NCBI GenBank assembly: GCA_945878405.1
Contig: CAMCTJ010000015.1
Span: 1 to 46,711 of the forward strand
Direction: 5' to 3'
DNA: 46,711 bases
Source of the DNA: Bdellovibrio sp. ZAP7
Lineage (GTDB): Bacteria; Bdellovibrionota; FAC87; UBA2466
In this document: positions 28,959 through 45,429 of the stretch, in pieces
Position numbering within the stretch: position 1 is the stretch's first letter
Layout: every line of letters starts with the position of its first letter
Notes under the pieces: generated by a model
The model's input: the letters and a program-made list of their open reading frames with translations, nothing else
The model's database searches: none
What the model was told of the DNA's origin: nothing
Translations under genes and position numbers: made by a program

Positions 28959-28992
28959 GTGTTACTTTTCCGGCAATTTGAGGGGCTTTTTT

Positions 28993-31287
28993 ATGGTTTT
29001 GGAAACAGTTCGAGAGTTCTTTGTAACTCGTTATCGTGGTCTGGGCGTTCGCGCGCTTTTTAAGGAATGGCGTTCTCTCTTTACCCTGAAGGATCTGCCT
29101 CTGGATCTTCGAGCAGGGCTATTAGTGGCAGGAGCTGCAGTTCCACTTTCTTTGGCAATTGCTTTGGGTTCCCAAGATGACCCAGAACTGGGGCTTCTTA
29201 GTGCCGTAGTGGGAGGCGTGATTTGCTCACTGTTTGGGGGCTCGCGCTTATCCGTCAGTGGACCGGCCAATTCCATGTTGATACTCGTTGCTGTAATTGT
29301 GGAACGAGCGGGCGTTGAGGGCCTCTTCTTTACAGGTTTTTGCTGCGGTTTAATTCAGCTGCTGATAGGGAGTTTTGGTCTAGGTAGATATGTTCGCTAT
29401 ATTCCGATTCCTTTGGTTGCAGGATTTACCGCTGGCCTAGGCGTGATTATTTTAGTGGGACAGCTCCCCAGAGCTCTCGGGCTTCCCGTTCCTCCCGCCG
29501 GTGATGTTCTTTCGGTATTAACTCATCTGGGGAGTCTCCTACATGAAAGTCAGCCTCGAGTGCTCATCGTTGCTCTGACTTCGATTCTTATCGCTCAGAT
29601 AGTCCCTCGAATTTATCCCAAACTTCCTGGGTCTTTTTTTGCTCTTCTCTTTTCAACTCTCTTAGTAGTAATCGCCGATTGGGAACTGCCTCAGATTGGA
29701 AGATTTGCAGGCGAGTTTAGTTGGCCCTCTGTTCCTGGATTTCCAAAGACAGGAGAGTTTGAGTTAGTTGAGATGGCTTTCCTTCTTTTTGCACTAGCTT
29801 CGTTGGAATCTAGACTTTCATCCATTGCAGCGGACAAAATTATTCCTGGAGAAAAGCATGATTCTGATCAAGAACTCATTGGACAGGGAATCGGCAATGT
29901 AGTTGTGGCGTGTTTTGGAGGGATTCCAGTTGCTGGTGTGTTATCACGTTCTGTTCTCAATATTCGAGCAGGTGCCCAAACTCGGCGAGCGGCACTCTTC
30001 CACGGGGTGTTTGTTTTCTTGGCTTTGGTGTTTTGTCGTCCGATCCTAAGTCATATTCCCATGGCAGCTCTGTCGGGAGTTTTGCTCTCAATTGCAATCA
30101 ACATGATCACTGCGCGAGAAATTGGTCATGTCTGGCGAACTTCTCCTGTCGAAGCCATTGTTTATTGGGTTACTTTTGGGACCGTTGTTTTGATTGACCT
30201 GATGGCGGGAGTCCAGATGGGGATTTTGGCAGCGCTTCTTATAGCACTCTGGAATCTAGGAAGAGCGAAATTGTTTTTTCAAAACACAGAAAAACAGGAA
30301 GTCATTCGAGCTTCCTTCAGTGGAAATATTACTTTCATGGCTTCCAAAAACTTCGAGGTGCTCACGAAACGGGTGCGAAGTGTGCCCGTGGTTAAAGCAG
30401 TTGTGATCGATTTGGGAGAGGTAAGAATGCTGGATACCACTGGGGCTTCGATGTTGCTCCAGTTTGTAAAAGAAATGAAAGAAAAGAGCATTCGGATTAT
30501 TTTAAAGTCCCTAAACCGAGAGAGCAGGGAAGTTTTAGGGAGAGTGGATGTCGATAAGATTGCCCAAGAATGCCACGTGGCTTCTGAATCAGAAATTGCC
30601 GAAACTTTATTAAATGAAAAGGTTTACGATCCCAGAGAAGCGCTTTTATTTGGGATTGAGCGGTATCGAAAAGAGCGAAAGAAGGCTTATGCCGATCTCT
30701 TTGATAAACTCGGGCAGGCACAAAAGCCGCATACTTTATTTATTACTTGCAGTGATAGCCGGATCAATCCTTCTTTGATTACTTCCAGCGAGCCCGGAGA
30801 AATGTTTATTGTCCGAAATGTTGGGAATATTGTCCCGGCAATGGGTACGGACGATACGCCAGCTGAAGGCGCAGCCATTGAGTTTGCTCTGGGAGCACTC
30901 GGGGTTGAGGAAATTATTATTTGTGGTCATACTCGTTGCGGAGCTCTGAAAGGAGTTTTTCACGGGATTGATCCCCAGGTTTTCCCTCATGTGGCTAAAT
31001 GGGTAGAACCCATCGGTGTGGAACGGAAGAAACACCCCGGAATTACGGATCCTGAAGAATTTGTGAAAGTTCATGTCATTGAACAGGCAAGAAATGTTTT
31101 AAGCTATCCAATTGTGCGGAAGAAGATCAGAGAAGGGCAAGTCAAAGTGCATTGCTGGATTTATGATGTTCAATCAGGAGAATTTCTTGAATGGACCGGA
31201 AAAGATTTTGAATTCGTTCCCGTGGGGCCCGAATCTCTGCATGGAAATATCCAGGCACTTCTTTCACCAACTCAGAGCGACTACTGA
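28993..31287 (+). CDS. SulP anion transporter fused to STAS and beta-carbonic anhydrase domains
   Basis: A 764-residue fusion. I start at ATG 28993 with GAGGGG upstream rather than a TTG five codons earlier. Residues about 30-425 are a SulP (SLC26-like) transporter with 10-12 helices, including LPLDLRAGLLVAGAAVPLSLA and GGSRLSVSGPANSM. A STAS domain follows (about 440-545, IDLGEVRMLDTTGASML). Residues about 555-760 are a beta-class carbonic anhydrase: Zn ligands Cys586 and Asp588 (TCSDSR), His646 and Cys649 (CGHTRCGA). The likely task is bicarbonate import coupled to its conversion to or from CO2 at the membrane, feeding anaplerosis or pH control. SulP-anhydrase fusions are known in other bacteria; the substrate here is inferred. 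It overlaps the CAP gene's 3' end by 7 bases. Confidence 0.9.
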   Translation: MVLETVREFFVTRYRGLGVRALFKEWRSLFTLKDLPLDLRAGLLVAGAAVPLSLAIALGSQDDPELGLLSAVVGGVICSLFGGSRLSVSGPANSMLILVAVIVERAGVEGLFFTGFCCGLIQLLIGSFGLGRYVRYIPIPLVAGFTAGLGVIILVGQLPRALGLPVPPAGDVLSVLTHLGSLLHESQPRVLIVALTSILIAQIVPRIYPKLPGSFFALLFSTLLVVIADWELPQIGRFAGEFSWPSVPGFPKTGEFELVEMAFLLFALASLESRLSSIAADKIIPGEKHDSDQELIGQGIGNVVVACFGGIPVAGVLSRSVLNIRAGAQTRRAALFHGVFVFLALVFCRPILSHIPMAALSGVLLSIAINMITAREIGHVWRTSPVEAIVYWVTFGTVVLIDLMAGVQMGILAALLIALWNLGRAKLFFQNTEKQEVIRASFSGNITFMASKNFEVLTKRVRSVPVVKAVVIDLGEVRMLDTTGASMLLQFVKEMKEKSIRIILKSLNRESREVLGRVDVDKIAQECHVASESEIAETLLNEKVYDPREALLFGIERYRKERKKAYADLFDKLGQAQKPHTLFITCSDSRINPSLITSSEPGEMFIVRNVGNIVPAMGTDDTPAEGAAIEFALGALGVEEIIICGHTRCGALKGVFHGIDPQVFPHVAKWVEPIGVERKKHPGITDPEEFVKVHVIEQARNVLSYPIVRKKIREGQVKVHCWIYDVQSGEFLEWTGKDFEFVPVGPESLHGNIQALLSPTQSDY

Positions 31288-33016: not shown

Positions 33017-35392
33017 ATGAAAAAAATTTTTATCCAGGGTTCTTTAGCGCTGACACTCATTCTAGCTCTCCTCTCCGGGATCGGTTACTACCTGGGATCC
33101 GGTGTTCAACTAAAACTTTCTCTTACCGATCTTCTTCCCGAAAATCACCCCGCAGTTGTTAAGTTCGAAAAGCTAACTGAAGTGGTGGGTGGGGTAGGGT
33201 ATTTCGCCATTGTTCTTCATGCCGAAGATGGAAAATCCCATTTAGAAGCTGGCCCCAAAATTACTGAAGCCCTGGCTAAATCAGAATTAGTGCGGAGTGC
33301 TTTTTTCCACCGGGAACAGCGCTTCTTTGTGGACCGTCTGCTTTACTACATTGATCTTCCAAAACTGGAGGATCTCGAACAAAACATTGAAAAAGAAATA
33401 ACCCGAATGAAGCGAACGACTTTTGATTTGGGGCTTTGGGATGAGGAAGAAACGACAAAAACGGACTCTGAAGATAAGTCCATCTTTGACGGGGATTTAA
33501 AAAAATTAGCTAAAAAATCTGCCAGTATTTCCCAGTATCTTATTTCTAAGGACCAAAAAGATCTCTTGATCATGGTCAAGCCCAGTTTTGACAGTATGGA
33601 TCTGGGTAAAACAAAACAATTAGTTGCAGTAGCCCAAGACATTCTTAAATCGACTCTTCCTTCGCAGGTAACTTACGAATTTGCTGAACGCTATTACACC
33701 AAAATCGTTGAGACTGAGATGATTCAGTCCGATATTTTTCTTTTGGGATCTTTGGCTATTCTCCTCATTGCGTTGATTATTTATGCTTACTTGAGAAGTT
33801 TTCGAGCCTTGTTAATCATTTTTATTCCAGTTCTTATGGGCATGGGAATTACCCTTGGCATCACACGGCTTGTGATTGGCCATATTAATATTATTACTGG
33901 ATTCTTAATGGGAATTGTCTCTGGGTTAGGCGTGGATTACGGGATTCACTTGGTCTTGAGACTACGATTAGAAAAAGAAGAGCCTTCCAGTCAGGATCCT
34001 GATCCTGTCTGGCGCGTTCTTGCAAGCAGTGGTCATTCAGTCTTCGTAGGCGCACTTGCAGCTTCGGTATCCTTCTTTCTCCTATGCTTTAGTACGTTTC
34101 GCGCTTTCTCTGAATTTGGATTTATCTGTGGAGTTGGGATCAGTGCAGTTTTTGTTTGCTTGCTTTCCAGTTTCTCTGCTCTTTCAAAAATCTTTAAAAT
34201 GGATGTGGCACCTCACCGAAAGAGCCTGATTCCCTGGCATCCAAAGCTTCCTGTTTTGACCATTCCCAAAGGATTTTTGGCTGGGACTATTGCCACCGTC
34301 TTATTGATCTTAGTGGGCTTTAAAGTTCAGTTTGAATATGACTTTGACAAAATGATGCAGCATTCAGCCAAAATGGAGGCGCTGGGTGATTTGGTAGATG
34401 CAATTTACGATCGATCCAATACGCCTTCCGCTATTTCAGTGACAGATCGAGATGAAGCCTTGAAAATTGAGAAGGTTATCAAAGATGAGTACATGCCCGG
34501 ACTGGTCAGCGAAATGATTAGTGCAGCCAGTATTGTCCCTGATGATCAGAGTGAGAAACAAAAAATTCTTTTGAGAATCAGAGAAAAAATAAAGCCTTTC
34601 AAAGACAAGTGGATTGAGCAAGCTTTAGATGTACCAGCTAATGTTGTGCGAGATTGGGTGAATGCAGTCCCTTTTACTTTTGACGACCTTCCGAGACATA
34701 TTCAAGATTCTCTTCGAGGAACTCAAAAAGGTGGATTTCTCATTTATATTTATCCAGCGATCAGTTTGAGTGAGCTCACCGGGGTTAAAAAATATGCAGC
34801 AATGATCCGTTCAATCGAAGAGCGTTTCCCTAATATACTCACGGGGTCCGATGCTGTTATTTTTTCAGATATTTTGGATCTGATAGGAAAAGACGGATCA
34901 AAAATTCTCATCGCAATTTTTCTCTGCGTGGGATTCTTTATTTGGATAAATGTTCGAAAAGTAAACGATACACTTTTAAGCTATCTACCGCTCCTGATTG
35001 CACTCCCACTAGGAATGGGCCTCATGGTGGCGTTTGGAGTAAAGTTTAATATTTTCAACATATGTATCATTCCGACTTTTGTGGCTATGGGTATCGACGT
35101 TCCGATTCACATTGTTCATCGAGCCAGAGAATGTGGTTCTGGATTTAAAGCCGCTCGAGATCTGGCTACCAGCATTAATTTGGCGCTGATGACCGCGGGA
35201 GTAGGGTTCGGTGTTTTGATTGGAGCCAGGGCAGGAGTACTTAAAAGTCTCGGTTGGATTGCACTTTTAGCAACGCTTGCTATTTGGTGGGTTGGCTTAT
35301 TTATGTTGCCAGCTTTCCTTGAAAAATTTTCCAAGGACAAACCTGAGTCCAACGCTGCTTTAGAGCTCTGTGAAGACCAAAAGCCAACATAA
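33017..35392 (+). CDS. RND/MMPL-family exporter
   Basis: A 791-residue inner-membrane protein with the duplicated MMPL layout: one N-terminal helix, a periplasmic domain (about 30-235), five or six helices (about 240-395), a second helix near 410, a second periplasmic domain (about 440-620) and a final helix bundle (about 630-775). VSGLGVDYGIHLVLRLRLE and GIDVPIHIVHRARE mark the two SSD/MMPL-type proton-relay regions, the first with its Asp. Hopanoid (HpnN-like) or other lipid export is typical of this size without TolC partners. No adaptor or outer-membrane channel gene is adjacent. There is no obvious ribosome binding site. Its 3' end overlaps the convergent VanZ-like gene by 92 bases. Confidence 0.85.
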   Translation: MKKIFIQGSLALTLILALLSGIGYYLGSGVQLKLSLTDLLPENHPAVVKFEKLTEVVGGVGYFAIVLHAEDGKSHLEAGPKITEALAKSELVRSAFFHREQRFFVDRLLYYIDLPKLEDLEQNIEKEITRMKRTTFDLGLWDEEETTKTDSEDKSIFDGDLKKLAKKSASISQYLISKDQKDLLIMVKPSFDSMDLGKTKQLVAVAQDILKSTLPSQVTYEFAERYYTKIVETEMIQSDIFLLGSLAILLIALIIYAYLRSFRALLIIFIPVLMGMGITLGITRLVIGHINIITGFLMGIVSGLGVDYGIHLVLRLRLEKEEPSSQDPDPVWRVLASSGHSVFVGALAASVSFFLLCFSTFRAFSEFGFICGVGISAVFVCLLSSFSALSKIFKMDVAPHRKSLIPWHPKLPVLTIPKGFLAGTIATVLLILVGFKVQFEYDFDKMMQHSAKMEALGDLVDAIYDRSNTPSAISVTDRDEALKIEKVIKDEYMPGLVSEMISAASIVPDDQSEKQKILLRIREKIKPFKDKWIEQALDVPANVVRDWVNAVPFTFDDLPRHIQDSLRGTQKGGFLIYIYPAISLSELTGVKKYAAMIRSIEERFPNILTGSDAVIFSDILDLIGKDGSKILIAIFLCVGFFIWINVRKVNDTLLSYLPLLIALPLGMGLMVAFGVKFNIFNICIIPTFVAMGIDVPIHIVHRARECGSGFKAARDLATSINLALMTAGVGFGVLIGARAGVLKSLGWIALLATLAIWWVGLFMLPAFLEKFSKDKPESNAALELCEDQKPT

Positions 35393-35807: not shown

Positions 35808-36563
35808 TTAATGATTTTTCAGAAAGAAAAGAATGTGACTGAGAAGTCGATTGATTTCAGTTTGCGTTTTTATGTAGTAACCGGCGGCACTCTTTTGAAA
35901 TTTGCCCACTCGTACACCCAAGATCTGTGGACTAGAAAGTGAAAACACGTCTTCATCTGTGAGATCGTCCCCCACATAAATGGCAGAATCTAGCTTAGCG
36001 TGTTTCATGAGTTCCAGAAGCGCTACTCCTTTATCAGGAGAACCGGGAGGTATAAGATTTACAACATATTTTCCAAGAACAATTCGAGGCGCGGGGGAAA
36101 GTTGTTCTGCTAGCTTTATTAATTGGTTTCTTTTAAGTGTTCGCTTTGAAGCAAGACGGTAATGAAGCGAAAGAGAAAAGGCTTTATCTTCTAATTGAAC
36201 TCCGCGTCCTAGTTCCAATTCTGCCAAAATCTGTTTAGTCCAATGGGAGGTGGTTTTTTTAGCGGCACTCACTACTTTTGAAGAAATAGTGGGTGATTCA
36301 ATTCCATGATTTCCGATTAAGTAATTAGGCCTAAATGGGATAAGTTTTTTTAGATCCCTAATTCCCCTTCCAGAAATAACGGCTGTAAAGGCAAGAGGTG
36401 AAATCTCGTGAAGAAGCATTTCGGTGCCTGCCGAAACTTGAGCATTCTGGGGGCGGGCAGTAAGTTTAGAAAGCGTTCCATCGAAATCAAAAGCAAGAAG
36501 CGTGTTATCTCCGCAAAAAGACTCTAATTCCTTGAGTCCTAGATTGCCAAAAATGTATTTCAT
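35808..36563 (-). CDS. otsB: Trehalose-6-phosphate phosphatase
   Basis: A 251-residue HAD-superfamily phosphatase of the OtsB type, which removes phosphate from trehalose 6-phosphate to give trehalose for osmoprotection. Motif I is FDFDGTL (about 25-31), motif II ISGRG, then LIGNHGIE with the family-specific loop; motif III is the Lys of PDKGVALLEL; motif IV is GDDLTDEDVF. A weak AAGG precedes the ATG. It starts 10 bases after guanine deaminase ends, so it is in the same transcript, though no functional link is obvious. No otsA is in this window. Residues downstream contain an imperfect ATCTTT/AAAGAT hairpin without a convincing U run. Confidence 0.92.
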   Translation of the reverse strand: MKYIFGNLGLKELESFCGDNTLLAFDFDGTLSKLTARPQNAQVSAGTEMLLHEISPLAFTAVISGRGIRDLKKLIPFRPNYLIGNHGIESPTISSKVVSAAKKTTSHWTKQILAELELGRGVQLEDKAFSLSLHYRLASKRTLKRNQLIKLAEQLSPAPRIVLGKYVVNLIPPGSPDKGVALLELMKHAKLDSAIYVGDDLTDEDVFSLSSPQILGVRVGKFQKSAAGYYIKTQTEINRLLSHILFFLKNH

Positions 36564-36573
36564 GAGCCTTTAA

Positions 36574-37890
36574 TTATAGTTGAGCGAACACTTTTTTGCC
36601 ATTTACAAAGACTGCTTCAATCAAATCTTTTTCAAAGTGAAACAGGCAGGAGAAGAAACGGTCTAAAGCCGTCTGGCTATTCTCCATTCTAGCTTTTAAT
36701 ATGGCTTTCTTTTTCCAGTTAATCACTTGGACATCAGCTTTTTTTCCAACTTCGAAATTTCCGATGTCATTTTCTAAGCCCAAAGCTTTGGCTCCTCCGA
36801 GTGTTGCTAAATAGAAAAGCTGGGCTGTAGACACATCTTGATGTCTGAGTCGTTGAATTGTGTATGCGGCTCCGAGGGTTGTCCAAAGGGAGAAACTGGT
36901 CCCAGCTCCAATGTCAGTTCCGACACTCATATTGATTTCTTTTTTCGAAAACAAATCCATCGGAAAAAGCCCGCTTCCTAGAAATAAATTAGAAGTAGGG
37001 CAATGGGAAACCTTCACGTTAAGTTTCGCCATTCGAGATATTTCAGATGAGGTGGCATGAATGCAATGGGCAAGAACCGTTCGCTCGTTTAACAATCCAA
37101 AATCTTCGTACGTGTGGAGATAGTCCTTTGACTTTGGGAATAGTTTTCTAACGAGTTGGATTTCATCAGTGTTTTCCGAAAAATGAGTTTGGATTCTCAC
37201 CCCTTTATGTTTTTGTGCTAGTTCCCCCAGCATTTTTAACATGGAGGCACTACAGGCTGGCGAAAAGCGGGGAGTGAGCGCATAAAAAAGGCGGCCTTCT
37301 TTGCCGTGCCATTTAGAAATTAATTCCTCTGAATGGTCTTTATCTTGAGACACGGAACGAGTGAGTTCCTTGGGCGCCAATCGGTCCATACTGACTTTTC
37401 CGATAATGGCCCGAGCCCCCGAAGCTTTTGCACTTTTAAAAAGGATATCGGTTGAGCCAGCATCTGAGCTACTCAAAACAAGACTCGTCGTAGTTCCGTT
37501 CTGGAAAAGTTCTCGGAAGAAGAGCGACGAAAAACGTTCAGCTTGCTTGGGGTGGCTCATGCGAAGTTCTTCGGGATAGATATATTTCTCAAGCCATCCC
37601 AAAAGAGATTCCCCATGGCAGCCAATTTGATTCATTTGAGGAAAGTGAATATGGGTGTCGACAAATCCCGGTAACAAAACACTGTCTTTGAAATGCGTTT
37701 CTTTCTTAGCTTTGAATAATTTCTTCAGGGAGGTGTAGGTACCGACCCCCAAAATCTTTCCTTGAGAGTCGATGGCGAGAGCTCCATCTGTAATTTCCTC
37801 AAAGTCTGGAGCAATAAAAGAAGAGTTGTTGCAATTCCAAAGGGTTCCTCGAAAAATCTGATCACAAACATGTTTAGTCACCGGCTTCAT
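36574..37890 (-). CDS. guaD: Guanine deaminase
   Basis: Converts guanine to xanthine and ammonia. I start at ATG 37890 (438 residues), which fits family length; an upstream in-frame start adds a Leu-rich extension within the preceding gene. The amidohydrolase Zn motif is PGFVDTHIHFPQ (His80, His82), followed by GTTTSLV, the His of THFSEN, LAHCIHA and the metal Asp in SVGTDIGAG. The stretch DTHIHFPQ is characteristic of guanine rather than cytosine deaminase. The gene overlaps the stop of the upstream membrane protein by 17 bases, suggesting coupling. With xdhA-xdhB-xdhC 1 kb away on the other strand, it completes a guanine-to-urate route. Confidence 0.9.
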   Translation of the reverse strand: MKPVTKHVCDQIFRGTLWNCNNSSFIAPDFEEITDGALAIDSQGKILGVGTYTSLKKLFKAKKETHFKDSVLLPGFVDTHIHFPQMNQIGCHGESLLGWLEKYIYPEELRMSHPKQAERFSSLFFRELFQNGTTTSLVLSSSDAGSTDILFKSAKASGARAIIGKVSMDRLAPKELTRSVSQDKDHSEELISKWHGKEGRLFYALTPRFSPACSASMLKMLGELAQKHKGVRIQTHFSENTDEIQLVRKLFPKSKDYLHTYEDFGLLNERTVLAHCIHATSSEISRMAKLNVKVSHCPTSNLFLGSGLFPMDLFSKKEINMSVGTDIGAGTSFSLWTTLGAAYTIQRLRHQDVSTAQLFYLATLGGAKALGLENDIGNFEVGKKADVQVINWKKKAILKARMENSQTALDRFFSCLFHFEKDLIEAVFVNGKKVFAQL

Positions 37891-38782
37891 CTTTGTTAGA
37901 CTTTCCCTCAATAAACTCAAGAGCACTGGCTAAGGCGGTTCCCCCGAGTCCATGCTTTTTCACCCAACTGTCTACTGGAAAAAGGCGAATGGCTAGAAAA
38001 AAGAGATAGGCCACGGCCACAGGCCTCAGGCTCTTCCAGATAAACTGTGCTTGTGAATCCTCGGCAAAATAAAAGAAAACACCGGTGAGAAAAAAGGGAA
38101 TCAGAAACAAAGGACTTTTGAGATCATAAAAGGCCCCTAGCACTGGGTGAGAAACCGACTTTTCAGATGAGGTTTTGGGAAGCCCCTTGAGGCCCCATTT
38201 GAGGAGTTTTTGATTGAGGAGATCTTGTTCATCGAAACGGGCATTCCAAGTGGCCCAAGTTAAACCACCTGCCGCGAGAGCTTTCAGAGCAGTAAATACC
38301 ACAACAAGGTTTGTTAACAGTTCCGGACTAAAATAAGAGAACATTTTTTGCAGCTGTTCCTCTCCTAAGGAAAACCCATACACCATCCAAAGGACAGCTA
38401 GAGGCTGAAACACTCCCCAGAGTGAAGAAAGAACAGCACCTAAAAAACAGCCCGGCAGGTTAGCGCCTAGCAGAAGGGTTCCCATTGAGAAGAGTAAACC
38501 CTGAACAGAAATAGCTAGCATCGGTAAGAGTTTCTTTCCAGCTGGCGAAAGGGATTTCAGTAATGCCGTGATGTTTGAAACCCGAAAAGCCAATGTATTG
38601 GAGCCTTTTCGTAGCTGGTTCAATTTCACGACCCGAGTGAGAAAAACCCCTTGATTCAGAGAAAGAAAGGTCCCCGCAAAAGGAAGTTTCATCCCATGGA
38701 GAATTCCCCCGAGCCCAATCTCTACTAGGCTCAAGATACCGGCGTAAACCCCTGTAATTCTTGAATCACTTTGATTCGACAT
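37874..38782 (-). CDS. Unknown membrane protein linked to guanine deaminase
   Basis: A 302-residue integral membrane protein with about six to seven hydrophobic segments (about 10-30, 85-110, 112-135, 150-175, 218-240, 248-265). The N-terminal GGILHGMKLPFAGTFLSLNQG, between two helices, looks conserved, but I cannot name the family. It is followed by guanine deaminase with a 17-base overlap, and diverges from xdhA across 75 bases. A transporter or membrane subunit for purines is the simplest inference; the sequence does not show a permease motif I know (it is not NCS2/AzgA-like). No ribosome binding site is evident before the ATG. Confidence 0.6.
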   Translation of the reverse strand: MSNQSDSRITGVYAGILSLVEIGLGGILHGMKLPFAGTFLSLNQGVFLTRVVKLNQLRKGSNTLAFRVSNITALLKSLSPAGKKLLPMLAISVQGLLFSMGTLLLGANLPGCFLGAVLSSLWGVFQPLAVLWMVYGFSLGEEQLQKMFSYFSPELLTNLVVVFTALKALAAGGLTWATWNARFDEQDLLNQKLLKWGLKGLPKTSSEKSVSHPVLGAFYDLKSPLFLIPFFLTGVFFYFAEDSQAQFIWKSLRPVAVAYLFFLAIRLFPVDSWVKKHGLGGTALASALEFIEGKSNKDEAGD

Positions 38783-38798
38783 GACTTGAGTCGTTTAT

Positions 38799-38836
38799 CA
38801 GAAATCCAATGAACCAACCATGAATTTCTGGATTTC
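38799..38836. promoter_or_regulatory. Inverted repeats in the xdh/guaD divergent region
   Basis: Two overlapping repeats lie in the 75-base gap: CAGAAAT (38799-38805) with ATTTCTG (38824-38830), and GAAATCC (38801-38807) with GGATTTC (38830-38836). The symmetry suggests a regulator site for both directions. An extended -10-like TGATATATA (38840-38848) lies next to the xdhA start. No known purine regulator box is recognised. Confidence 0.35.
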
Positions 38837-38857
38837 CCATGATATATAAGAGACTCC

Positions 38858-40306
38858 ATGCGAGATTATTCCTTAATTTATCTGAATGGTGTCCGCAAAG
38901 AAGTGAGGGGGAGAGAAGCGCTTCTCATGCTCGCGGATTGGCTTCGTAAAGAAGAAGGACTGACGGGAACCAAGATCGTATGTGCAGAGGGGGATTGCGG
39001 AGCCTGTACGGTTTTAAGAGCGTTTCCTCAGATTGATAATAATCCGCTCCAATTTGAAGCTATCAATTCTTGCATTGCCACTGTCGCTCAAATGGACGGT
39101 TCTCACCTCTTAACTGTCGAGGGAATCCAAAACGGACAGGAACTTTCTCCTGTTCAAAAAGCAATGAGAGAGTGCCACGGTTCTCAATGTGGTTATTGCA
39201 CTCCAGGGTTTGTCATGGCATTGACCGGAGCTTTAGAAAAACACCAGTCCCTAGATAAGAAAACGGCCTGTAATTATCTTACAGGAAACTTGTGTCGCTG
39301 CACGGGATATCAACCCATTATTGAGGCAGCCATCACTGCAAAGCAAAGTGAGGAGCACTCGGTTTCGAAACGGTATCTCACCAAAGATACTGTGGCTGAT
39401 CTTTCCCACCATCAGAAAGAATCGCTTTTGATAAAGAGCGGTCTCATAACTTTCTTTGCTCCGGTGACTCTCCAGGAAGCCGTTCAGTTTGCCTCAGAAA
39501 ATCCAGGCTTCAAGGTTCTGGGAGCTGCGACAGACATGGGGGTACAGACCAACAAAGGAAAACCGCTTCCCAAACATTTGCTCAGTTTGCATTTGATTTC
39601 TGAATTGTACGAAGTCCGGAAAGAGGACACCCGAATCAGCGTTGGGGCTCGCGTGACATTAGCTCAATTGCGGCGAGCAGTGGAAAAGACAAACCCAGAG
39701 TTTGCGGTTTTTTTAAATCTTTTTGCCTCTCCTCAGATAAAAAACGCAGCTACCCTTGTCGGGAACATCGCCAATGCGTCTCCGATTGGGGATACGCTTC
39801 CATTTCTCTTGGTTTCCCACGGCAAGGTGCACGTAGCGAGCATTGAAAAGGGAAGTGTACAAAAAAGAGAAATTGCCTTCTCTGAACTGTTCTTGGACTA
39901 TAAAAAACTCGCTCTTAAGCCTTCCGAAATTATCACGCATGTTTCTTTTGATGAGACTTGCCAAGATCAGATTCTGAAAATTTATAAAGTATCCCAACGA
40001 AAAGATCTTGATATCAGCACTGTGAGTGGCGCTTTCTTGTTGAAGACTTCCCTTCAAGGCAAAGACAAAAAAATCGAGGAGGCTCGTCTTGCTTATGGGG
40101 GCGTGGCAGCAACTCCAGTCAGATTACCTGAAGCAGAAAAAGCCCTCCAAGGAAAAGTGCTGGATTCGAAACTCATTCACGAAGTATCAGAACTCATCGG
40201 AAAGATCATTTCCCCACAAACAGATCTGCGAGGGTCTCAAACTTATCGCAAAGTTTTAGCCATGAACTTATTTAAGAAGTACGGTCGTGAGGTGCTTCAT
40301 GGGTGA
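38858..40306 (+). CDS. xdhA: Xanthine dehydrogenase, Fe-S/FAD subunit
   Basis: The small subunit of xanthine dehydrogenase, 482 residues. The N-terminal [2Fe-2S] domain carries cluster cysteines 42, 47, 50 and 72 (GDCGAC, SC) and a second set 111, 114, 146 and 148 (CGYC, CRC). The FAD domain (about 190-480) includes the KVLGAATDMG flavin loop and LVGNIANASPIGD. It passes electrons from the molybdenum site to FAD and NAD. The start is ATG 38858, with AAGAGA upstream. The stop overlaps the start of the next gene by 8 bases, so translation is coupled. Confidence 0.94.
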   Translation: MRDYSLIYLNGVRKEVRGREALLMLADWLRKEEGLTGTKIVCAEGDCGACTVLRAFPQIDNNPLQFEAINSCIATVAQMDGSHLLTVEGIQNGQELSPVQKAMRECHGSQCGYCTPGFVMALTGALEKHQSLDKKTACNYLTGNLCRCTGYQPIIEAAITAKQSEEHSVSKRYLTKDTVADLSHHQKESLLIKSGLITFFAPVTLQEAVQFASENPGFKVLGAATDMGVQTNKGKPLPKHLLSLHLISELYEVRKEDTRISVGARVTLAQLRRAVEKTNPEFAVFLNLFASPQIKNAATLVGNIANASPIGDTLPFLLVSHGKVHVASIEKGSVQKREIAFSELFLDYKKLALKPSEIITHVSFDETCQDQILKIYKVSQRKDLDISTVSGAFLLKTSLQGKDKKIEEARLAYGGVAATPVRLPEAEKALQGKVLDSKLIHEVSELIGKIISPQTDLRGSQTYRKVLAMNLFKKYGREVLHG

Positions 40307-42692
40307 TGGGCTAAAGGGGCTGCCGCCAATAGCAAGTGATCCACACGATTCTTCGTTTTCCCATGTAACGGGAAGATCCGAATACGTTGACGATCGGCCG
40401 CTTTTAAAACGCGAGTTAATATGTGGTTTGGTTTATAGCCCGTATGCGCGAGCCAATCTCAAAAGCACCGATTTTACCCAAGCGCTCCAAGTCCCGGGAG
40501 TGGTGGAAGTTGTGACAGCGAAAGATGTAGTTACAAACACTTGGGGTACGATTTTTCAAGATCAACCGGTCTTGGCCTCGACCGAAGTTCATTACGCTGG
40601 AGAAGTGATTGCAGTGCTGGGAGCGGAAACTCCCGAAGCTCTTAGGATGGGGCTAGCCCAAGTCAAAGTGGAATGGGAAAAGCTTCCAGCGATTTTGAGT
40701 GTCGATGAGGCGGTTTCAAAAAAGAGTTTTATTGGAGAAGAAAGATCCATTGCTCGTGGAGATGTGGTCGAAGCATTGAAAAACTCTCCGAAGCGACTGT
40801 CCGGGTGTTTGAAGATTCAAGGTGCTGATCATTTTTATTTAGAGAGTCAAGCAGCGGTTGTGTATCCGAAAGAAGAGGGACAACTAGAAGTTCATTCCTC
40901 TACCCAGCACCCAACGGAAACCCAGCATGTCGTTGCAAAAGCCTGTGGAGTCCCTTTCAAAGACGTTGTGTGCATTGCCAAGCGCCTAGGAGGTGGGTTT
41001 GGCGGTAAAGAGTCCCAAGCTGCTCCGATTGCGGCTTTCGCAGCTCTGATGGCTAAAAAGACCGGAAGGCCTGCCCGTTTGGCTCTTTCTAAAGATGACG
41101 ACATGGTCATTACAGGAAAGAGAAACCCATTTCAGATTTCTTATGACGTAGGATTTAACTCCGAAGGTAAAATCTTGGCGTTTGATGCGAAGCTCTTCTC
41201 AGATGGAGGAGCTTACGCGGATCTGTCGACTTCGATTATGGAGAGAGCCATGCTCCATAGTGACAATGCTTATTTCATTCCCCATATGCGAGTGTGCGGG
41301 CAAGTCTGCCGAACCAACTACCATCCCCACACGGCCTTCCGCGGTTTTGGCGGGCCCAAAGGAGTTGCTCTCATTGAGTCGGTCTTAGAGGACGTCGCCA
41401 GAGAAACAGGAAAAGACGCTTTAGATATTCGTAAACTCAATTGTTATAAACCCGGCGAGGATATTACTCACTATGGGCAAAAAGTTGAGAACAATCTCTT
41501 GCCTGGACTCTTTGAAAAACTAGAGACTGATTCGGAATACCGAAGTCGCAGGGAAGAGATAAATTCGTGGAATCAAAAAGCCATTGAAACCGGGGGCAAT
41601 CCAAGAGGGTTATCTCTGACCGCGGTAAAGTTTGGAATATCGTTTACCACTCGATTTTTAAATCAGGGAAATGCTTTGGTGATTATTCACACGGATGGAA
41701 GTGTGCAAGTGTCCACAGGAGCAGTGGAGATGGGGCAAGGGGTAAACTCCAGAATTGCTTCTATCGTTGCTGAAGAGTTTGGGCTTCCCTTATCTTCGAT
41801 TCGAATGATGCCTACTTCGACTGAAAAAAATGCCAACACGTCGCCAACAGCTGCTTCCAGCGGAACTGACATCAACGGGGCCGCTGCCCAAAAGGCTTGT
41901 CTCGAAATAAAAAAACGACTTGCGGCCTTGGCTCTCAAACTCAAAGATACCTCGAAGGAACTGTGGCCCAGCAAAACTGCTGGTTTGGGAACTGCTCCTG
42001 AAATTGAACTCGGTAAAGAAATCGAAACTTCTCTGACTCAAGTGGCTTTTGAAAACTGTCAGGTAATGTTACGAGATAAGTCTTTCCAACTTAAGTTTTC
42101 AGATCTTGTCCGTGAAGCTTATCTAAACCGAATATCTTTAAGTGAATATGGGCACTACCGGATTCCTGATTTGGGATTCGATAAGTTAAAAGGAAAGGGC
42201 CGCGCTTTTCTTTATTACACCCAAGGGGTTGCTGCCAGCGAGGTCGAACTAGATAGAGATACCGGAGAAGTGAAAGTACGCAGAGTGGATATTTTAATGG
42301 ATCTCGGAAGACCCATTAACTATGGATTGGATGTGGGGCAGGTAACCGGCGGGTTCATCCAAGGAATGGGGTGGGTTACGACCGAAAACCTAGTCTACAA
42401 TCAAGATGGCTTTCTTTTAAGCCATTCTCCGAGCACTTACAAAATTCCCAGCATTCAAGACACCCCCCGAATCTTTAACGCAAACTTAGTTCACAACGAA
42501 GGCAATACGGTAAACGTAAAAAGCACAAAAGCAGTGGGAGAACCTCCGTTGCTTCTGTGCTTGTCAGTGTGGACAGCCATTCGCGACGCGGTCATGTCCT
42601 ATCAAGGAAATAAGGTCATTCCGATGGCAATCCCCGCCACATCAGAGAGAATCTTAAGAGCTTTAACGCCTGAGGAGTTTCTCGAAACATGA
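40299..42692 (+). CDS. xdhB: Xanthine dehydrogenase, molybdopterin subunit
   Basis: The molybdenum-binding large subunit, 797 residues, which hydroxylates hypoxanthine and xanthine. I start at ATG 40299, where GTGAGGTG is placed correctly; a GTG four codons earlier would include that site. Motifs are GGGFGGKES, FRGFGGPKG (active-site Arg region), and EMGQGVNSRIASI with the catalytic Glu near the end of the protein (GEPPLL). The residues needed for a xanthine site (Glu and Arg around the purine ring) look present but should be confirmed by alignment, since other purine or aldehyde hydroxylases share this fold. A 4-base ATGA overlap couples it to xdhC. The preceding xdhA stop overlaps the start by 8 bases. 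Confidence 0.92.
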   Translation: MGDGLKGLPPIASDPHDSSFSHVTGRSEYVDDRPLLKRELICGLVYSPYARANLKSTDFTQALQVPGVVEVVTAKDVVTNTWGTIFQDQPVLASTEVHYAGEVIAVLGAETPEALRMGLAQVKVEWEKLPAILSVDEAVSKKSFIGEERSIARGDVVEALKNSPKRLSGCLKIQGADHFYLESQAAVVYPKEEGQLEVHSSTQHPTETQHVVAKACGVPFKDVVCIAKRLGGGFGGKESQAAPIAAFAALMAKKTGRPARLALSKDDDMVITGKRNPFQISYDVGFNSEGKILAFDAKLFSDGGAYADLSTSIMERAMLHSDNAYFIPHMRVCGQVCRTNYHPHTAFRGFGGPKGVALIESVLEDVARETGKDALDIRKLNCYKPGEDITHYGQKVENNLLPGLFEKLETDSEYRSRREEINSWNQKAIETGGNPRGLSLTAVKFGISFTTRFLNQGNALVIIHTDGSVQVSTGAVEMGQGVNSRIASIVAEEFGLPLSSIRMMPTSTEKNANTSPTAASSGTDINGAAAQKACLEIKKRLAALALKLKDTSKELWPSKTAGLGTAPEIELGKEIETSLTQVAFENCQVMLRDKSFQLKFSDLVREAYLNRISLSEYGHYRIPDLGFDKLKGKGRAFLYYTQGVAASEVELDRDTGEVKVRRVDILMDLGRPINYGLDVGQVTGGFIQGMGWVTTENLVYNQDGFLLSHSPSTYKIPSIQDTPRIFNANLVHNEGNTVNVKSTKAVGEPPLLLCLSVWTAIRDAVMSYQGNKVIPMAIPATSERILRALTPEEFLET

Positions 42693-43516
42693 GTCGTTTT
42701 ATTCGTGAATACTTAGTAAAAGCTCAGGAGCTTCAAACCCAAGGTGTGACTTTTGTCACTGTGACCTTGATTCAACCCGAGGGGCATGTGCCTCAAGATA
42801 TTGGAGCCAAGGCCATTATCACTACCGAAGGAATTATTTGGGGGACAGTGGGTGGGGGAAGGCTCGAGGCCCAAGCCATACACCATGCGAAAGCAATGAT
42901 TTCAAAAGCAGAACTCCAGGATTTGAAAAATCCCGTTCAACCGGAAATGGTACGCTATGATCTTCAAAAAGATTTGAATATGGTGTGCGGAGGCATGGCG
43001 AGCTTGTTTTACGAACTGTCTTCGCAACGTGCGTGGAATATCGCGGTTTTTGGAGCAGGACACGTGGCTCAAGCTGTGATTCCCTTGATCACCAGTTTTG
43101 AGTGCAATGTTTGGTGTTTAGATCCCCGAGAGGAGTGGCTTGCTCGGCTTCCACTAAAAGCAAATCTAAAGAAAATCCAATCAGAAGACTTACCGGGGTA
43201 TGTTTCCAAACTGCCCAAAGATCTTTTCTACTTGTGTATCACTCAGGGACATTTCACTGATCTTCCGATTGTAAGAGAAATTTTAAAGAGAAAAGACGCA
43301 CTCTTCCTGGGCGTGATTGGAAGTGTTCAAAAAGCAAGAACCCTCAAAAACACGCTTCGAGAAGAGGGGTTTTCTCAAGAAGAAATTAATTCCATTCACT
43401 GTCCCATCGGTCTACCCATTGGGACCAACGCTCCTGCTGAGATTGCAGTGAGTATTGCAGCTCAGCTGCTTCAGAAACGAGATGAGTTGTTGAAAACTCC
43501 TACAGAGAAGCCTTGA
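42689..43516 (+). CDS. xdhC: XdhC molybdenum cofactor insertion protein
   Basis: XdhC binds the molybdenum cofactor, assists its sulfuration and inserts it into XdhB. The protein is 275 residues. The N-terminal domain has IIWGTVGGGRLEA followed by the Cys of NMVCGGM, and the C-terminal Rossmann half starts IAVFGAGHVAQA, followed by CPIGLPIGTNAPAEIAVSIAAQLL. It starts within the xdhB stop (ATGA), so the three genes form a tight operon. The 3' end overlaps the convergent barrel protein gene by 17 bases. No moaA or other cofactor synthesis gene is in this window. Confidence 0.9.
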   Translation: MSRFIREYLVKAQELQTQGVTFVTVTLIQPEGHVPQDIGAKAIITTEGIIWGTVGGGRLEAQAIHHAKAMISKAELQDLKNPVQPEMVRYDLQKDLNMVCGGMASLFYELSSQRAWNIAVFGAGHVAQAVIPLITSFECNVWCLDPREEWLARLPLKANLKKIQSEDLPGYVSKLPKDLFYLCITQGHFTDLPIVREILKRKDALFLGVIGSVQKARTLKNTLREEGFSQEEINSIHCPIGLPIGTNAPAEIAVSIAAQLLQKRDELLKTPTEKP

Positions 43517-44445: not shown

Positions 44446-45429
44446 TTAAAACGAGGGGCGAATGCGATAGAAAGTACCGAATTGATGGGCATATTCGTAA
44501 GGGAGGGAGCCATACCCTGGCGTCGTGCCTGGGCCCAAAAGGTCACTCTTGCGTCCGAAGCTTTCGATTCCCCAGGAGTTTTTAAAATAATAGACCCTTT
44601 GGACATCATCAAAGCCCACAATTATCAAAGAATGGCCCGCCTGCTTTTGGCGGGACAAAGCAATGTCTTGGGAATTGGGGATGCCCACGGTACCTCGAGC
44701 CCACAGCTCCGGGTCTGGCTCGCCAATGCCTAGCTCTGCCATTTTACGGTGGTTCCAAGCTCCATAGAAAAAATCTAATTCTAGGAGCACAGGCTCGTTG
44801 GAAAGAATCCGACGATGGACTTCTGTTAAGGAGGACACACGCAGTGCCACAGTTTGGTCTGTCTTGAAATCCTTGGCAAAATTCTTGGCTTGTTCGAGAA
44901 AGGGATTTTGATAAGGATCTCGATGGGTCTTGAGGCAGAGATCCTGTCGAAGGCCAATGAAAAAACAAGTAGCATTTCTGAGGGCTATTTCTAGGGCGGA
45001 AAGATCAGGTTTCAGCCAATCCTGGCCCTCGTAGGGCCAGACTTCCTCGGCCATCACTCCTTGTTTTCTCACTCCCAGAAAATTATCGGAAGCGGTGGAT
45101 CCTGAAAAGGGCCGCTTAGTAATCTGGGTTGTGACAATATAGGCCAAATAGTTCTCAGAAAGATCGTGGGTGATACCAGTTCTCACTTTGAGCCAGGATT
45201 CCAAAATCCCAATCGCTGAAAAAATAGAACAGACTCCCCGTCTGTCTTGGGATTTCACAGGAGTTTGTAAACTGATCAGAGCTCCCACATTATTTCGCGA
45301 GGGAAGTCGATTCTGGATGAGGTCATTCAGAGGCGGATTCGGAGAAGGGTAAGCTTCATCGAGTGGGGATTGATCTGAGCAGGCTACCGCTAAAAGCATA
45401 GCCACTGACCAAAGAAGAATTCTTTTCAT
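44446..45429 (-). CDS. Papain-family (C1) cysteine protease lipoprotein
   Basis: A 327-residue secreted lipoprotein (lipobox LAVAC, Cys17) with a papain-type catalytic domain. The oxyanion-hole Gln61 and nucleophile Cys67 are in VKSQDRRGVCSIFSA; His266 is in AGHSLIIVGFDD and Asn284 in FKNSWG. Thus all four papain catalytic residues are visible. The propeptide is short or absent, so self-inhibition is unlike cathepsin zymogens. It is probably on the cell surface or in the periplasm. AGAGGT precedes the ATG at 45429. It diverges from a small exported protein, and the window also has a C25 protease; both may feed on or modify external proteins. Confidence 0.88.
   Translation of the reverse strand: MKRILLWSVAMLLAVACSDQSPLDEAYPSPNPPLNDLIQNRLPSRNNVGALISLQTPVKSQDRRGVCSIFSAIGILESWLKVRTGITHDLSENYLAYIVTTQITKRPFSGSTASDNFLGVRKQGVMAEEVWPYEGQDWLKPDLSALEIALRNATCFFIGLRQDLCLKTHRDPYQNPFLEQAKNFAKDFKTDQTVALRVSSLTEVHRRILSNEPVLLELDFFYGAWNHRKMAELGIGEPDPELWARGTVGIPNSQDIALSRQKQAGHSLIIVGFDDVQRVYYFKNSWGIESFGRKSDLLGPGTTPGYGSLPYEYAHQFGTFYRIRPSF

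Follow-up and report, generated by a model that had tools for sequence, protein, structure and literature searches.

A candidate membrane importer of finished molybdenum cofactor beside the xanthine dehydrogenase genes of a Bdellovibrio relative

Between a guanine deaminase gene (guaD) and the xanthine dehydrogenase genes (xdhABC) of Bdellovibrio sp. ZAP7 (assembly GCA_945878405.1) lies a gene for a 302-residue membrane protein, here called MEM (positions 37874-38782, minus strand), and the question raised by this locus is what such a protein, outside any Pfam family, is doing there. The locus was analysed within positions 1 to 46,711 of contig CAMCTJ010000015.1, hereafter the window. A first-pass annotation, made from the letters of this DNA, had placed MEM in a guanine-to-urate island, as a possible new transporter or membrane helper, with prey nucleic acids as a conceivable purine source. 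The island is real, but MEM had been interpreted through the wrong neighbour gene: across genomes, MEM tracks the absence of molybdenum cofactor (Moco) synthesis, not guaD or the purine pathway. Since MEM occurs mostly in genomes with molybdenum enzymes but without Moco genes, and has a fold resembling that of vitamin-uptake proteins, it probably imports ready-made Moco. We propose, with a probability of roughly 0.65, that MEM is a solitary inner-membrane importer of finished Moco with an S-component-like fold, standing in for synthesis. The observations behind this candidate role are the fold likeness of the predicted model, the lack of a detected EcfT, the linkage with molybdenum enzymes, the anticorrelation with Moco synthesis and the remnant of a deleted MEM gene.

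MEM, molybdenum enzymes and cofactor synthesis across the phylum

A first search recovered MEM in 17 of 59 genomes, the window genome included. One set of 230 genomes of the phylum was searched for MEM, the molybdenum-hydroxylase domain PF02738, MoaC and MoaE, which were found in 53, 120, 64 and 57 genomes, respectively. PF02738 accompanied MEM in 52 of the 53 carriers, the exception (G072) having MoaC, MoaE and MoeA. The 120 genomes with PF02738 divided into 47 with MEM and no MoaC, 5 with both, 45 with MoaC and no MEM, and 23 with neither (Fisher p 1.8e-10), so that MoaC was present in 45 of the 68 hydroxylase genomes lacking MEM. The five co-occurrences compare with 20.1 expected when MoaC was shuffled within families (p 5e-5) and 10.1 when it was shuffled within genera (p 1e-4). 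MoaC was missing in 47 of the 53 carriers and MoeA, which inserts molybdenum into the pterin, in 48; MoeA was present in all 14 MEM-free, MoaC-bearing genomes checked (of 45) and in 1 of 13 checked with neither gene. MoaE followed the same pattern, with matches in 4 of 53 carriers, 38 of the 45 MEM-free genomes with MoaC and none of the 23 with neither. Judged by their gene content, most MEM carriers cannot make Moco, as MoaC and MoeA are missing.

The window genome is 95.75% complete, holds xanthine dehydrogenase and a sulfite-oxidase-family protein, and gave no match for MoaC, MoaE or MoeA. Its xdhABC genes encode ordinary subunits and a maturation factor, and differ from the usual in adjoining MEM in such a genome. 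The single-contig genome G161 likewise has MEM, PF02738 and MOSC, and MoaC, MoaE and MoeA were not found in it.

Five genera hold both states, with ratios of genomes carrying MEM and no MoaC to genomes carrying MoaC and no MEM of 3:3 (g6), 2:7 (g64), 1:8 (g21), 2:1 (g75) and 1:1 (g95). In g6, the surroundings of the xdh locus are alike in G010, which has MEM, and in G007, G009 and G011, which lack it and carry moa/moe clusters on other contigs (four genes of L160/L161 were checked by model). Directly upstream of xdhB, where G010 has MEM, the MoaC-bearing G009 retains a remnant of MEM, 33 codons from its C-terminus with 73% identity to G010 (E 6e-13 by tblastn over four intergenic stretches); the corresponding stretches of G007 and G011 gave no remnant by tblastn. 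In g21, the moa/moe genes stand at the xdhA end (L219, L220, L221, L226), whereas MEM of G077 is found at the opposite, xdhC end with intervening genes, and the two therefore do not share one slot. In g64, two of the five MEM-free loci inspected (L222, L223) have moa/moe genes one gene beyond xdhC, the place of MEM in G122. In at least 10 of the 45 MEM-free genomes with MoaC, no more than 20 kb separate MoaC from a hydroxylase gene.

For the gene neighbourhood, 63 MEM loci were drawn from the GTDB genome set through one conserved motif of a 16-sequence alignment, which misses relatives devoid of that motif. According to record titles, 49 belong to groups of Bdellovibrio relatives and three to Chlamydiales, Chlamydiia or Verrucomicrobia, the rest bearing broader or other names. 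Neighbours were clustered in the 61 loci with a clustered MEM frame (L063 and L095 being dropped), and 42 of these have a molybdenum-hydroxylase or xdhC gene in the flank, as an enzyme subunit in 39 and as xdhC only in three. The nearest such gene lies at most 600 bases from MEM in 38 loci, and in L044, L048, L049 and L056 MEM shares 4 bases with a hydroxylase gene of the same strand. Three enzyme layouts were seen beside MEM, namely xdhAB, a split three-subunit form and, by eye, a Tat-exported/IorAB-like-looking form (L042, L052, L060 and L068, with domain matches for the L060 pair). Counted by genome, a molybdenum-enzyme or xdhC gene lies close to MEM in 35 of the 53 carriers (the window, 13 of 16 and 21 of 35 loci, and none at G072), the survey of the 16 loci having used fewer seed proteins than that of the 35; a locus with a MOSC gene near MEM (L208) is counted among these 35 genomes.

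Carriers without xanthine dehydrogenase were also recovered. Out of 20 genomes reached through MEM loci, partly repeats of the same genomes, 14 have PF02738; the six others are three Chlamydia-like genomes (G230, G231, G232), G234, G236 (the same genome as G072) and G242. G234 holds two PF00174 proteins, and the five carriers with neither domain, G072 standing for G236 in this count, are all MOSC-positive (24 of 74 among the others), the G231 matches being fragments. The G230 protein combines MOSC_N and MOSC domains, presumably the YcbX/mARC layout. The presence of MOSC in carriers lacking hydroxylases is suggestive, and would fit a link between MEM and Moco.

Predicted fold and proposed route of the cofactor

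In line with the first-pass description of an unrecognised family, MEM had no Pfam match at E <= 1 and a sole NCBIfam match at chance level (E 0.28). A profile of 16 relatives compared with the chains of solved structures gave one chance match (E 0.67), and the 16 members searched against Pfam gave scattered weak matches to unrelated families (best E 0.0067). AlphaFold2 models were built from 16 sequences (pLDDT 80.5, pTM 0.75) and from 63 (pLDDT 86.4, pTM 0.81). In structure comparison the 16-sequence model was led by 5edl (Z 12.9), which we take to be YkoE, and by RibU 5kbw (9.4), with a designed protein next (8.6). For residues 1-189 of the 63-sequence model (VIA-align), 5edl reached Z 13.2 (159 residues, rmsd 3.5) and RibU 5kc0 10.3 (155 residues), and this model also matched 4huq chain S (8.7), presumably an S-component as well, and CbiM (5x3x, 7.7); S-component chains took ranks 1-3, 5, 7 and 8. 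No fold closer than the S-components was listed in this comparison, and a closer one may still exist. Sequence identity to the fold matches is 7-14%; the accessible text of PMC11109136 gives about 15% among S-components themselves. In the predicted model, residues 1-189 form a six-helix S-component-like core, followed by a C-terminal part for which additional helices are predicted. The earlier guess that MEM may be a transporter finds support.

EcfT (PF02361) gave no match in 80 genomes, including 57 MEM carriers, in a search that matched 10 of 14 controls (nine over cut-off) and did not extend to the ATPase subunits. Without EcfT, MEM would act alone, as thought for BtuM, whose transport as a lone S-component was inferred by its authors from function in an Escherichia coli strain devoid of an ECF module (PMC6072759, in the part available). 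With BtuM (vitamin B12) and solitary BioY (biotin), MEM shares an S-component-like fold, the lack of a detected EcfT and a bulky proposed cofactor substrate. In the text available on BtuM, that protein binds cobalt via a cysteine; unlike BtuM, MEM has no invariant cysteine among 63 sequences, carries an extra C-terminal part, has another proposed substrate and shows no sequence match to solved structures beyond chance. MEM resembles the S-components of ECF transporters (5edl, RibU 5kc0/5kbw, 4huq chain S, CbiM 5x3x) in the fold of residues 1-189 and departs from them in the lack of an EcfT match in its genomes and the lack of a Pfam match. The AxxxA docking motif in helix 1 is not strict (A14 in 42 of 63; position 18 S in 46 and A in 10).

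Seventeen positions are invariant in the 63 aligned sequences, including E21, H29, N43, Q44, K76, Q94, W122 and Q126. If the N-terminus is placed inside, the charges of the loops largely obey the positive-inside rule, the exceptions being a slightly acidic N-terminus and a basic, nearly invariant outer loop, SLSPxGKKL (K76 in 63/63, K83 in 62/63, K84 as K or R in 63/63). In this orientation the K76/K83/K84 stretch may be an anion site on the outer face for the cofactor's phosphate. In G119, G125, G128 and G145, longer open frames (380-623 residues) match MEM more weakly and form a possible second subfamily.

We infer a route in which Moco is the substrate, moved inwards by MEM itself: once across the outer membrane, Mo-molybdopterin would be bound in the periplasm and carried into the cytoplasm, perhaps by facilitated diffusion, and would be trapped there by XdhC, for which we assume a role in Moco handling, and by apo-enzymes. 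Its delivery to enzymes such as xanthine dehydrogenase would fall to XdhC, joined in some relatives by a MocA-like enzyme. As neither pterin building nor metal insertion is expected without MoaC, MoaE and MoeA, the imported species should already hold molybdenum, and useful import would consist of finished Mo-molybdopterin or of a nucleotide form trimmed later. MocA acts on Mo-molybdopterin, and MocA/MobA-like genes near MEM in the MoaC-free genomes G010 (L159, below the equivalog cut-off) and G048 (L020, Pfam domain only) would need this substrate, which fits import. The likely source would be lysed prey, other cells or the surroundings; the first-pass idea of prey as a source may be kept for the cofactor and is given up for purines. 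The sulfite-oxidase-family protein of the window genome (contig C9, L170:1312-2934) has, by eye, a leader without an obvious twin-arginine motif and, towards the C-terminus, two CxxCH motifs; it is apparently exported and, if exported unfolded, would need Moco delivered outside the cytoplasm.

Use of foreign Moco has a precedent in Caenorhabditis elegans, which draws on ready-made bacterial Moco in addition to, or instead of, making its own (PMC9793310, PMC11879881, available text); the likeness ends with the organism, an animal, and with the fact that no protein is named in that text, in which the membrane step is stated to be unknown (PMC9793310). In the literature searched, which left preprints outside and held few subscription papers, no paper on a bacterial Moco importer was found. 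Among the passages available, 'molybdenum cofactor transporters' are listed, citing other work, with genes in the Geosiphon genome that may have come from bacteria (PMC13315312), some outer-membrane proteins of the type 11 secretion system (T11SS) are suggested, without a test there, for cobalamin or molybdopterin uptake (PMC12282271), and modelled Moco uptake in E. coli is treated as unrealistic (PMC3423039); the available text of two papers on Bdellovibrio and Halobacteriovorax metabolism (PMC7529429, PMC12724312) contains no word starting with 'molybd'. With slightly less assurance than for the role itself, we lean towards MEM being the first membrane importer of finished Moco, a new stand-alone family with the S-component fold in Bdellovibrio relatives and some Chlamydia-like bacteria, which would enable predators and intracellular bacteria to operate their molybdenum enzymes with cofactor from other cells, in the absence of a synthesis pathway. 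If true, this genetically linked and testable candidate would be a first handle on Moco transport, would explain why molybdenum enzymes are kept without the pathway in many Bdellovibrio relatives and could bear on research into Moco deficiency. It also cautions against labelling molybdenum enzymes as idle in genomes devoid of moa genes.

Competing explanations and genomes that do not fit

Several points weigh against import of Moco by MEM. In eighteen of the 53 carriers, some of them on short contigs, the flank contains no gene for a molybdenum enzyme; among these eighteen, G048 and G057 (contig L070) have an adjoining MobA/MocA-like nucleotidyltransferase and G072 (contig L057) a ThiF-rhodanese protein. 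MoaC is present in six carriers (five with PF02738, plus G072), of which G004 has 9% contamination and G116 is without MoeA, and 7 of the 45 MEM-free genomes with MoaC also have no MoaE match. Most of the assemblies are incomplete, and a gene scored as absent may in some cases lie in a gap; in addition, the genome-wide evidence on Moco synthesis covers MoaC, MoaE and MoeA, and that on MoaC covers carriers other than the Chlamydia-like ones. On the structural side, designed helical proteins scored Z 8.5 and 7.5 in the same comparison, helical bundles can reach Z ~13 by arrangement alone according to the warning of the tool, and Foldseek gave no match below E 0.001, its best being 5edl (E 0.015, probability 1.00).

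Finally, 23 of the 70 genomes with PF02738 and no MoaC also lack MEM, and there one has to assume another importer or route, enzymes that stand idle, or genes that escaped detection or fell into assembly gaps. Eleven of them belong to genus g46 and four to family f10, the latter with weak PF02738 matches, while a remaining seven are scattered, one with MoeA and some less than 90% complete. The g46 genomes (seven of one contig) hold PF02738 and neither MEM nor MoaC; MoeA was absent in 5 of 5 and MOSC present in 3 of 3 checked. A 63-row profile run at E up to 10 on all 11 yielded scraps of MEM only (E 0.0077-0.28, four genomes), and the xdh loci of two genomes and the MOSC loci of two showed no MEM by profile and no candidate by eye. 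Such genomes (e.g. G071, G055; L130, L131, L231, L232) have xanthine dehydrogenase and a MOSC_N/MOSC protein (checked in L231), with an adenine deaminase beside xanthine dehydrogenase in L130, and thus molybdenum enzymes without a visible cofactor source. G150 resembles g46 and has, by eye, a MocA-like gene (L133).

The rival that survives best, unlikely as we judge it, is that MEM serves as a receptor, carrier or insertion factor for scavenged Moco and that another protein performs the transport. The distribution serves this explanation equally well, the C-terminal part of MEM extends beyond the S-component core, and the S-component fold is known in the non-transporters MreD and sensor kinases (PMC11109136, text available). 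It would also agree with a small-protein cluster adjoining MEM in 9 of 61 loci, yet this is the commonest such neighbour, most loci showing no other membrane protein, and solitary S-component transporters such as BtuM have been reported. The cluster comprises L038:932-1402, L039:10994-11440 and members in L067, L075, L086, L087, L092, L094 and L098; the L038 member, the only one checked, is YdcZ-type (PF04657). This protein is a possible partner of MEM, and none stands between MEM and guaD in the window. Small cysteine-rich proteins, which we take by eye to be DUF5522-like, adjoin MEM at L059:9513-10028 and L076:10935-11195.

Transport of guanine, xanthine or urate for the guaD/xdh pathway appears improbable. 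Besides the window, it is favoured by guaD adjoining MEM in 3 of 63 loci (L037, L038, which is the G002 contig, and L039) and by an adenosine deaminase near MEM in four (one of them checked by model). These figures stand against the 42 of 61 loci with a molybdenum-hydroxylase or xdhC gene, and the association with guaD that was expected elsewhere is largely missing: no guaD was seen at 35 further carrier loci, and the amidohydrolase 2 kb from MEM in L070 is a different one, with 31% identity over part of the sequence. A CDA-type deaminase lies near MEM in four loci, and the one member checked is TadA-like and below cut-off, and is therefore not called a guanine deaminase. MEM matched neither the nucleobase-permease model PF00860 nor another permease model; proteins of that Xan_ur_permease family, the usual one for purine permeases, are separate close neighbours of MEM in L037 and L184. 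A purine transporter would moreover leave the anticorrelation with MoaC and MoeA unexplained, as well as the pairing of MEM with Tat-exported/IorAB-like-looking hydroxylases and with the MOSC gene of L208, and its presence in three Chlamydia-like carriers devoid of PF02738.

We hold it to be just as improbable that MEM imports another cofactor, for instance a flavin, and that the Moco genes disappeared incidentally in the course of reductive evolution. The presence of RibU in the list of fold matches speaks for this reading. Against it, some MEM genomes yielded only MOSC or sulfite-oxidase-family proteins, which are not known to need a flavin for the Moco step, and gene reduction by itself would not lead one to expect MEM to be missing, or deleted, in genomes that retain moa genes. 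Import of molybdate, which the linkage with molybdenum enzymes might recall, is the least credible, as molybdate would be unusable in most carriers, which lack MoeA and MoaC, as MEM gave no match to the MOT1 molybdate-transporter model PF16983, and as MEM-free relatives with moa/moe genes have a protein of their own beside these genes, the one checked (L161) matching PF16983.

The guanine-to-urate island and other features of the window

Gene order, coordinates, the 75-base gap and the 17-base overlap of guaD and MEM (37874-37890) were all confirmed as annotated at first pass, and so were the enzyme identities, for which NCBIfam equivalog cut-offs and Pfam domains were used. On the minus strand, guaD (36574-37890, ATG start) scores 451 with TIGR02967 (cut-off 375.4) and the trehalose-phosphatase gene otsB (35808-36563) 105.2 with TIGR00685 (cut-off 68.05). 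On the plus strand follow xdhA (38858-40306), the FeS/FAD subunit, xdhB (40299, ATG, to 42692), the molybdopterin-binding subunit, which needs Moco, and xdhC (42689-43516), the maturation factor. The last two score 858.2 with TIGR02965 (cut-off 849.5) and 168.8 with TIGR02964 (cut-off 161.6); xdhA has the right domains and stays under the cut-off of 467 with TIGR02963 (435.3), although its match spans residues 8-475 of 482.

The overlapping inverted repeats described for the divergent gap (38783-38857) do exist (38799-38808/38821-38830 and 38801-38808/38829-38836), but they are near chance level and weak evidence for a control site: an 8-base perfect arm occurs in 3.4% of 3000 random sequences of equal composition and in 55 of 1866 tiles of the window, and the sister species G001, with a gap of 50 bases between MEM and xdh, has a longest arm of 4. 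Within 18 kb around MEM, G001 has neither guaD nor otsB; both are near MEM in G002. A part for otsB in the function of MEM was considered and rejected, since otsB was seen near guaD only in the window and G002, and the gene is probably unrelated to that function.

Later purine steps were not seen in the window island (no search of the genome was aimed at uricase) and occur in kin: a MEM-free relative (L229:13638-15604) encodes a Urate_ox_N-type urate oxidase and a hydroxyisourate hydrolase a few kb from xdhABC. Elsewhere in the window, positions 28978-31287 form a single long frame, by eye a fusion of a SulP anion transporter and a beta-carbonic anhydrase, positions 33017-35392 encode an MMPL-family protein, and positions 44446-45429 encode a papain-family (C1) peptidase that is probably exported.

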